A stretch of 64,000 nt of DNA from Salinirubellus salinus (GTDB taxonomy: Archaea > Halobacteriota > Halobacteria > Halobacteriales > Haloarculaceae): assembly GCF_025231485.1 (NCBI RefSeq), contig NZ_CP104003.1:1364001-1428000 (forward strand), in the 5' to 3' direction. The number at the start of each line of letters is the position of its first letter. The first letter of the stretch is position 1. The notes beneath the pieces were generated by a model. The model made no database searches and was not told the origin of the DNA. It saw nothing but the letters and a program-made list of their open reading frames with translations. A program made the position numbers and the translations under genes. Below, piece after piece: positions 57,594 to 58,756 of the stretch.

Positions 57594-57740
57594 ATGCGTG
57601 ACGAGGAGGAGATACGCGAACAGTACGAGTTCCTGAAGGCTGAACTGGACGACGAGGACATGAGACACGAGGGCGTTCGACAGATGTTCACCTACTACAA
57701 GCGGGCGCTCGGGTGGGTGCTCGAGGAGGAGTACATCTGA
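57594..57740 (+). CDS. Short conserved haloarchaeal-type protein
   Basis: A 48-residue acidic protein beginning MRDEEEIREQYEFLKAELD, almost wholly helical, with FTYYKRALGWVLEEEYI at the end. The ATG at 57594 is chosen because the upstream codons are unrelated in character. Such short helical proteins are common in haloarchaeal genomes and unassigned. It lies just upstream of the candidate RNA at 57.8 kb. Confidence 0.65.
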   Translation: MRDEEEIREQYEFLKAELDDEDMRHEGVRQMFTYYKRALGWVLEEEYI

Positions 57741-57775
57741 GGAACGCCGGGAGCGTCGTGCGGTTCAGCCGGTAG

Positions 57776-57900
57776 GTTTATGTCCCCGTGACCGCTTGTT
57801 GCAGGTGACGCTTCGCTTTGGAGGGCCGAAGCGTCAGCGGGGACCAACTAGGGCGGCAAGCCTCAAGCCGGCTCTTTTCACCCGGCTCGGGGCTTTCCAC
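57776..57900 (+). ncRNA. Candidate structured non-coding RNA with its own TATA element
   Basis: Between the convergent genes at 57594 (+) and 57935 (-) two strong stems occur in a row. Stem 1: TGACGCTTCG (57806-57815) with CGAAGCGTCA (57827-57836), ten perfect pairs. Stem 2: arms at 57858-57871 and 57882-57895 give 13 of 14 pairs (one A-C mismatch) around loop CTCTTTTCAC. GTCCCCG (57782-57788) can pair with CGGGGAC (57838-57844) and enclose stem 1. A TATA-like GTTTATGT at 57776-57783 fits initiation near 57805. It matches no RNA I can name; a 3' untranslated element of the short gene is the alternative. Confidence 0.5.
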
Positions 57901-57934
57901 TCTTCGAGAACTACACCGCGAGCGACGTGGCCGT

Positions 57935-58204
57935 CTACTCGATACTCAGCGACGCGTCACCGTCGCCCGCGTTCACGTCCCACTCCAGCTCGAACTCGAT
58001 GGAGAGCTCCTCGCGGCCGTTCGTCTCGCGCTCGACCTTCACCTCGAAGGTGGGACGAGCGGGCACGTCGAGCGACACCGACGAGCCACCGGCGCTGACC
58101 GTGACCGCCTCGCCGGCCTCGAGTTTGTTCGCGACGTCCCGCAGGAGCGCGGCGACGTCGGCACGGGACTGGACCTGTTCGTGTTCGAAGAGGACTTCCT
58201 CCAT
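57935..58204 (-). CDS. Amphi-Trp domain protein
   Basis: An 89-residue protein, MEEVLFEHEQVQSRADVAALLR onward, then a beta-strand body with VTVSAGGSSVSLDVP and IEFELEWDV. This is the amphi-Trp domain layout of a small, often stand-alone haloarchaeal domain of unknown function. The ATG at 58204 is used because the upstream 21 codons do not fit. The stop is 35 bases from the candidate RNA. Confidence 0.82.
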   Translation of the reverse strand: MEEVLFEHEQVQSRADVAALLRDVANKLEAGEAVTVSAGGSSVSLDVPARPTFEVKVERETNGREELSIEFELEWDVNAGDGDASLSIE

Positions 58205-58471: not shown

Positions 58472-58756
58472 ATGTACGACCTGACAGGGTTCCAGCGTGA
58501 CCTCCTCTACGTCATCGCGGGGCGGGACGAACCGCACGGGCTCGCCATCAAGGAAGAGCTCGAGGACTACTACGAGAAGGAGATCCACCACGGGCGGCTC
58601 TATCCCAACCTCGACACGCTCGTCGACAAGGGGCTCATCGAGAAGGGGCAGCGCGACCGCCGGACCAACTTCTACACGCTCACGAGTCGTGGCAAGCGGG
58701 AGATACAGGCTCGGCACGACTGGGAGGCCCAGTACACCGAGGGGATGTTCGACTGA
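58472..58756 (+). CDS. PadR-family transcriptional regulator
   Basis: A 94-residue winged-helix protein. The N-terminus FQRDLLYVIAGRDEPHGLAI and the helix ELEDYYEKEIHHGRLYPNLDTL form the PadR recognition region, followed by the wing RRTNFYTLTSRG. It is short, without the usual C-terminal dimerisation helix pair, as in other small haloarchaeal PadR proteins. The target is unknown; such regulators are often autoregulated. It converges on the Fe-S carrier gene. Confidence 0.9.
   Translation: MYDLTGFQRDLLYVIAGRDEPHGLAIKEELEDYYEKEIHHGRLYPNLDTLVDKGLIEKGQRDRRTNFYTLTSRGKREIQARHDWEAQYTEGMFD

Follow-up and report, generated by a model that had tools for sequence, protein, structure and literature searches.

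A predicted small RNA gene with a near-invariant 26-nt core, conserved across the Halobacteria

Background

In decoy RNAs of the CsrB/RsmZ type, GGA-containing loops bind a protein and titrate it. The small RNAs of haloarchaea have been described as fast-evolving, and most of them as confined to one species (PMC3956466). Among them is hts10 of Haloferax volcanii, an intergenic small RNA that was found by sequencing together with prediction, is present in 18 other haloarchaeal genomes, and gives a mild phenotype when deleted: the lag on acetate is lengthened and growth is altered slightly (PMC3956466). The predicted RNA reported here was found in a 64,000-nucleotide stretch of the Salinirubellus salinus genome (the window), and it is the opposite of the fast-evolving kind: nearly all genomes of the class Halobacteria have it, and it carries a 26-nt core that is almost unchanged, and has no entry in an RNA library. 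No description of this RNA family was found in the literature searched, nor was one found with strings of its sequence.

Results and discussion

Gene and promoter

A first-pass annotation had described the space between two convergent genes of the window as holding either an independent small RNA or a stable 3' untranslated element. Comparison of genome sequences leaves little doubt that a real, conserved RNA gene lies on the plus strand (Table 1); thus the first of the two readings stands, and that of a mere 3' untranslated element does not, given that second copies are located away from the usual neighbours. An independent plus-strand transcript with a start near 57805 is supported by the promoter, by conservation throughout the class, by covariation in hairpin 2 and by an excess of G-U pairs.

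The TATA-like sequence that had been noted in front of the element belongs to a conserved BRE/TATA promoter. Alignment of 149 upstream regions gave the consensus CCGGTAC-N-TTTAAGT at -37 to -23 relative to T57806, with up to 2.0 bits per position. The centre of the TATA box is located about 26 nt upstream of this T, the first base of hairpin 1, and the spacing from TATA box to start that is general to archaeal promoters therefore predicts a start at about 57805-57807.

The interval was searched with cmscan against the 4227 models of Rfam 15, and no family was found above its gathering threshold, which confirms the earlier impression that this is not a tRNA, 5S rRNA, SRP RNA or RNase P RNA; the two matches returned at a permissive threshold were at chance level. 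Two classes of guide RNA were also considered and rejected. For box H/ACA, the consensus has neither a conserved ACA box nor a pocket in hairpin 1, and complementarity to rRNA is not above that of shuffles; for box C/D, neither box C (RUGAUGA) nor box D (CUGA) is present in the conserved consensus.

Table 1. Coordinates of the predicted RNA gene, its parts and its neighbours in the window
Feature	Position	Strand	Description
Small RNA gene	57805..57904	+	predicted start 57805-57807, predicted end about 57904; length about 97 nt
Promoter	57769..57783	+	BRE CCGGTA 57769-57774, TATA box TTTATGT 57777-57783
Hairpin 1	57806..57836	+	stem 57806-57815 with 57827-57836, loop 57816-57826 (CUUUGGAGGGC)
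Core GGAGGGCCGAAGCGUCAGCGGGGACC	57820..57845	+	near-invariant, 26 nt
Linker AGCGGGGACCAACUA	57836..57850	+	single-stranded; unpaired in RNAalifold consensus
Hairpin 2	57851..57902	+	long covarying stem, U-rich loop (CUCUUUUCAC), pyrimidine-rich 3' end
48-aa protein gene	57594..57740	+	upstream; no Pfam or NCBIfam family; ancestral neighbour
Amphi-Trp domain protein gene	57935..58204	-	convergent; Pfam PF20068, E 1e-30
PadR-like regulator gene	58472..58756	+	downstream; Pfam PF03551, E 2e-17

Secondary structure

The two hairpins that had been seen in the window are both real. As read directly from the sequence, TGACGCTTCG (57806-57815) pairs with CGAAGCGTCA (57827-57836) in a stem of ten pairs, and AAGCCTC-A-AGCCGG (57858-57871) pairs with CCGGCT-C-GGGGCTT (57882-57895) at 13 of 14 positions, around a loop of ten bases. 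The pairing is also beyond chance, as had been supposed, when the G+C content is allowed for: 57776-57900 folds at -59.6 kcal/mol, compared with a mean of -47.3 for shuffled sequences (z = -3.3; none of 200 dinucleotide shuffles was as good), and hairpin 2 folded alone has a z of -5.1. The minus strand of the interval folds equally well, so the strand is not given by folding alone, but the excess of G-U over A-C pairs (226 versus 25) indicates that the plus strand is the RNA.

A third stem, in which GTCCCCG (57782-57788) would pair with CGGGGAC (57838-57844) and enclose hairpin 1, exists as sequence but is not part of the RNA: its 5' strand is upstream of the probable transcription start and overlaps the TATA box. 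This stem was rejected, all seven of its pairs being kept in only 3 of 149 relatives; two of the seven follow from the conserved GT that ends the TATA box.

The arms of hairpin 1, GACGCUUCG and CGAAGCGUC, flank the loop CUU(U)GGAGGGC. Hairpin 1 is paired in 100% of 98 distinct sequences, and its nine modelled pairs have undergone three substitutions in all, every one of them to a G-U pair. The sequence hardly varies, and hence does not covary; the support for hairpin 1 is thus conservation rather than covariation. Compensatory changes, for which a comparison of relatives had been recommended, are present in hairpin 2, where 16 of the 17 pairs have two-sided changes. For the whole structure, 336 cells are two-sided, compared with 97.5 in shuffles, and the paired fraction is 95.0% of cells, compared with 33.8-50.4% when the partners are slid; alignment A2, being fitted to the covariance model, favours the structure, and a plain MAFFT alignment (A1) gives a weaker covariation signal that is mostly in the same direction. 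The same two hairpins were obtained with RNAalifold on A2. Within the linker, the stretch AGCGGGGACC is nearly invariant. A pseudoknot between UUGG of the hairpin 1 loop and CCAA of the linker is possible in 120 of 149 copies, but it was rejected, as variants lose a pair and there is no covariation.

Distribution and genomic context

A BLASTN search with positions 57760-57910, at a cut-off of E <= 1, matched 56 of 58 relatives, in nearly all cases strongly. Scanning named genomes with a pattern yielded at least 119 stretches, with Haloferax, Halorubrum, Natrinema, Haloarcula, Halococcus, Haloquadratum, Actinarchaeum and others among the genera of the matches listed. Covariance model R1, which covers 57805-57902 of the window at 92.9 bits, detects the RNA in 290 of 292 Halobacteria genomes that are near-complete (completeness at least 90%), representing 75 of 77 genera. 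The first-pass annotation had named a lack of conservation or covariation in relatives as grounds for abandoning the proposal; this presence in the class and the covariation of hairpin 2 are the reverse of that. Among 158 genomes sampled across the phylum, 25 carry the RNA, all of them from the window's own order, and no copy was found outside the class in any genome of the sample, in a search with stricter filters by which weak matches could be lost. The exact core is absent from IMG/VR contigs, and phage records likewise gave no match. The RNA is inherited vertically since the ancestor of Halobacteria. The two genomes of the class that have no detectable copy belong to different families (G041 of f9 and G043 of f11).

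Of 150 distinct RNA loci, 77 have the gene for the 48-aa protein upstream, at a distance of 47-252 nt (searched within 600 nt), 91 have a PadR gene up to 1.5 kb downstream, and 64 have both, these counts being lower bounds since some loci are short. The amphi-Trp gene, near only some copies, has a match in 39 of the 150. The order of 48-aa gene, RNA and PadR gene occurs from Haloferax to Actinarchaeum, indicating that the place of the RNA between these two genes is ancestral. The 48-aa protein is acidic (MRDEEEIREQYEFLK...), and the place of its gene next to the RNA is conserved in the class.

Some genomes have additional copies. Family f4 usually has two, and a second copy was found in all 15 Haloferax genomes tested (H. 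volcanii not among them), where it is located elsewhere in the genome, with Lrp-like genes upstream of it and a large transducer-like gene after it, these genes having been named from a reading of their sequence. Two copies are on plasmids, namely pHLAC01 (L290) and a plasmid of Haloarcula sp. GH36 (L289). Given the second copies, which are away from the usual neighbours, and the plasmid copies, the RNA does not need those neighbours. Both plasmid copies have kept the 26-nt core, and their second hairpin is different.

The 26-nt core and its recurrences

The core is composed of GGAGGGC, the 3' arm CGAAGCGUC and the linker stretch AGCGGGGACC, and only three substitutions were found in 173 distinct instances, a count that is biased towards invariance inasmuch as the patterns or models by which most instances were gathered tend to select for the core. 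The picture is the same in the BLASTN and covariance-model searches, for which the core is no requirement. Variation is slightly greater in the 5' arm and in the bases that precede GGAGGGC.

Part of the core recurs after a gene for a YfcE-like phosphodiesterase (TIGR00040). The sequence GGAGGGCCGAAGCG is found exactly, in sense orientation and no more than 65 nt after the stop codon of this gene, at four loci (L261, L265, L271 and L278), while several others have it with one or two mismatches; in the window's own genome, the 3' untranslated region of the phosphodiesterase gene contains GGAGGGCCGGCGTCAGCGGGGAACCAACCT (L264, G000:C1 after 2495279). In many genomes the motif is absent from this position or degraded, so its link to the RNA may be local. 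A stretch nearly identical to the 3' half of the core was noted in the phosphodiesterase 3' untranslated region of several genera (L264, L259, L261, L265, L271, L275, L278, L281 and L282). Opposite the phosphodiesterase gene, in convergent orientation, is a gene whose protein bears a C-terminal membrane anchor. In G041, listed above as having no detectable RNA, the phosphodiesterase 3' untranslated region (L288) is likewise without the motif.

Elsewhere, a 23-nt scan that allowed three mismatches found about 10 extra half-copies in 56 genomes, versus 1 match for the control, and these half-copies do not have the 5' arm. The shorter word GGAGGGCCGAAG had 67 matches in 32 genomes, versus about 8 for the reversed control, almost half of them being the RNA itself, and no extra copies were found in 0.99 Mb of flanking sequence, where shuffled words had a mean of 0.73. 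As a dispersed genomic motif GGAGGGCCGAAG was therefore rejected, being near chance level except at the phosphodiesterase 3' untranslated region. One genome has two tandem arrays of four copies of GGAGGGCCGAAG at a spacing of 32-33 bp (G035:C8:137890-137997 and G035:C37:22353-22463; L218 and L219). In two genomes that belong to one genus, the half-core GGAGGGCCGAAGCGTCAGCGGGTGGGGACCTGACAGGG and a variant of it are located in intergenic sequence beyond an oxidoreductase-like gene (L291 of G031 and L294 of G013).

Proposed mechanism and alternatives

The RNA most likely acts in trans through the core GGAGGGCCGAAGCGUCAGCGGGGACC; action in trans is supported by the relocated second copies and by the copies on plasmids. 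From what can be read in the sequences, we tentatively prefer a mechanism of protein binding, stopping short of calling it probable, in which the RNA would be either part of a ribonucleoprotein or a decoy. The core would be its working part, with GGAGGG presented in the loop of hairpin 1 and AGCGGGGACC held single-stranded in the linker, and it would be recognised by a putative RNA-binding protein conserved in haloarchaea. Hairpin 2, which has a U-rich loop and a tail of pyrimidines, would end the transcript and protect it, and could be a site for Lsm. A decoy RNA would compete with mRNAs that carry core sequence, of which the phosphodiesterase mRNA, with GGAGGGCCGAAGCG in its 3' untranslated region in several genera, is one candidate. 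A more far-reaching scheme, rather unlikely in our estimation, would make the RNA the hub of a post-transcriptional system common to haloarchaea, in which GGAGGGCCGAAGCGUCAGCGGGGACC is the site read by the putative protein, the RNA serves to titrate or deliver that protein, and mRNAs such as that of the phosphodiesterase share the site in their 3' untranslated regions.

The main rival to protein binding, and a serious one, is that the RNA is a regulatory RNA that acts by base pairing, with GGAGGGC of the loop and AGCGGGGACC of the linker serving as short seeds for several mRNAs, and with the many targets accounting for the invariance. This is possible, although doubtful. The loop and linker are largely unpaired as well as nearly invariant, and sRNA132, another haloarchaeal RNA, has been proposed to pair with open reading frames and 3' untranslated regions (PMC6560208). 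However, the loops are no more invariant than the stem of hairpin 1; the same linear stretch of the core recurs in another mRNA in sense orientation rather than as its complement, and in a different structural setting; and no complementary partner of 12 nt is conserved. These three observations count against base pairing, and are the reasons for proposing a protein as the reader of the core. As to the third, exact matches to the 12-mers GGAGGGCCGAAG and AGCGGGGACCAA were found in many genomes only in the RNA itself, and other matches were scattered, indicating that no long complementary target is conserved.

An association with the ribosome, by pairing of the GGAGG in the hairpin 1 loop, which resembles a Shine-Dalgarno sequence, with the CCUCC anti-Shine-Dalgarno of 16S rRNA, or by some other contact, is improbable. 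The GGAGG is invariant, the 16S rRNA of the window's genome ends in ATCACCTCCT, and ribosome-associated small RNAs have been reported in H. volcanii (PMC12482152, PMC6104027), but the pairing would extend over only 5 bp with mismatched flanks, the duplex energies with 16S and 23S rRNA are no better than those of shuffled segments, and the invariant stem and linker would be left unexplained. It is very improbable that the element is no independent RNA but a 3' untranslated region or bidirectional terminator of the flanking genes: these genes are convergent in the window and hairpin 2 looks like a terminator hairpin, but the element has a conserved BRE/TATA box of its own, its second copies have different flanking genes, and hairpin 1 and the linker are conserved far beyond what a terminator needs. 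Least credible is a leaderless small mRNA that begins with the first codon of the RNA (GUG/AUG/UUG ACG CUU CGC ...), since, although NTG is present at the predicted start in 133 of 149 copies and leaderless transcripts make up 72% of those of H. volcanii (PMC6560208), no conserved reading frame with synonymous changes was found, codons 6-13 are almost without change of either kind, a stop occurs at codon 16 in 5 of 32 long forms, and the three or four loop bases before GGAGGGC (in 68 and 32 of 100 sequences, respectively) put the same bases in different frames, which excludes such a frame as the reason for the invariance of the core.

Relation to known small RNAs

The preferred mechanism of protein binding has a parallel in the CsrB/RsmZ decoys, a likeness of mechanism only: a GGA loop would bind and titrate a protein, but those RNAs have many such hairpins versus one here, and no CsrA-like partner has been identified for the present RNA. 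Haloferax sRNA132 is similar in being intergenic, in having a promoter of its own and in consisting of two stems and a linker (PMC6560208), but it is found in Haloferax only and its linker is pyrimidine-rich, whereas the present RNA occurs throughout the class and its linker is G-rich. H225.2R (HVO_1727s2) is similar in size at 96 nt, was predicted by conservation, and is present in 19 other haloarchaeal genomes (PMC3956466). However, to judge by its numbering, H225.2R would be located elsewhere on the chromosome. No TBP gene, which is what we take HVO_1727 to be, was seen near either Haloferax copy.

The second Haloferax copy is likely to correspond to hts10 (HVO_2213s) of H. volcanii, an assignment made from gene order, with HVO_2214 presumed to be a transducer gene. 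In other Haloferax species this copy is located downstream of a gene for an Lrp-like protein of 78 aa, equal in length to HVO_2212 (78 aa; PMC12850539). The reported size of hts10, which occupies 2078656-2078816 on the forward strand of the H. volcanii chromosome, is 161 nt, versus about 97 nt for the present RNA. If hts10 is one of the two Haloferax copies, the existence of the RNA has experimental support, in a genetically tractable species, and the mild phenotype of the deletion would be explained by the other copy; what is new would then be the class-wide family, its structure, its invariant core and the second copy that is linked to PadR. In our judgement, not from a computed ranking, this RNA is probably among the most constrained of haloarchaeal RNAs after the standard RNAs of translation and export.
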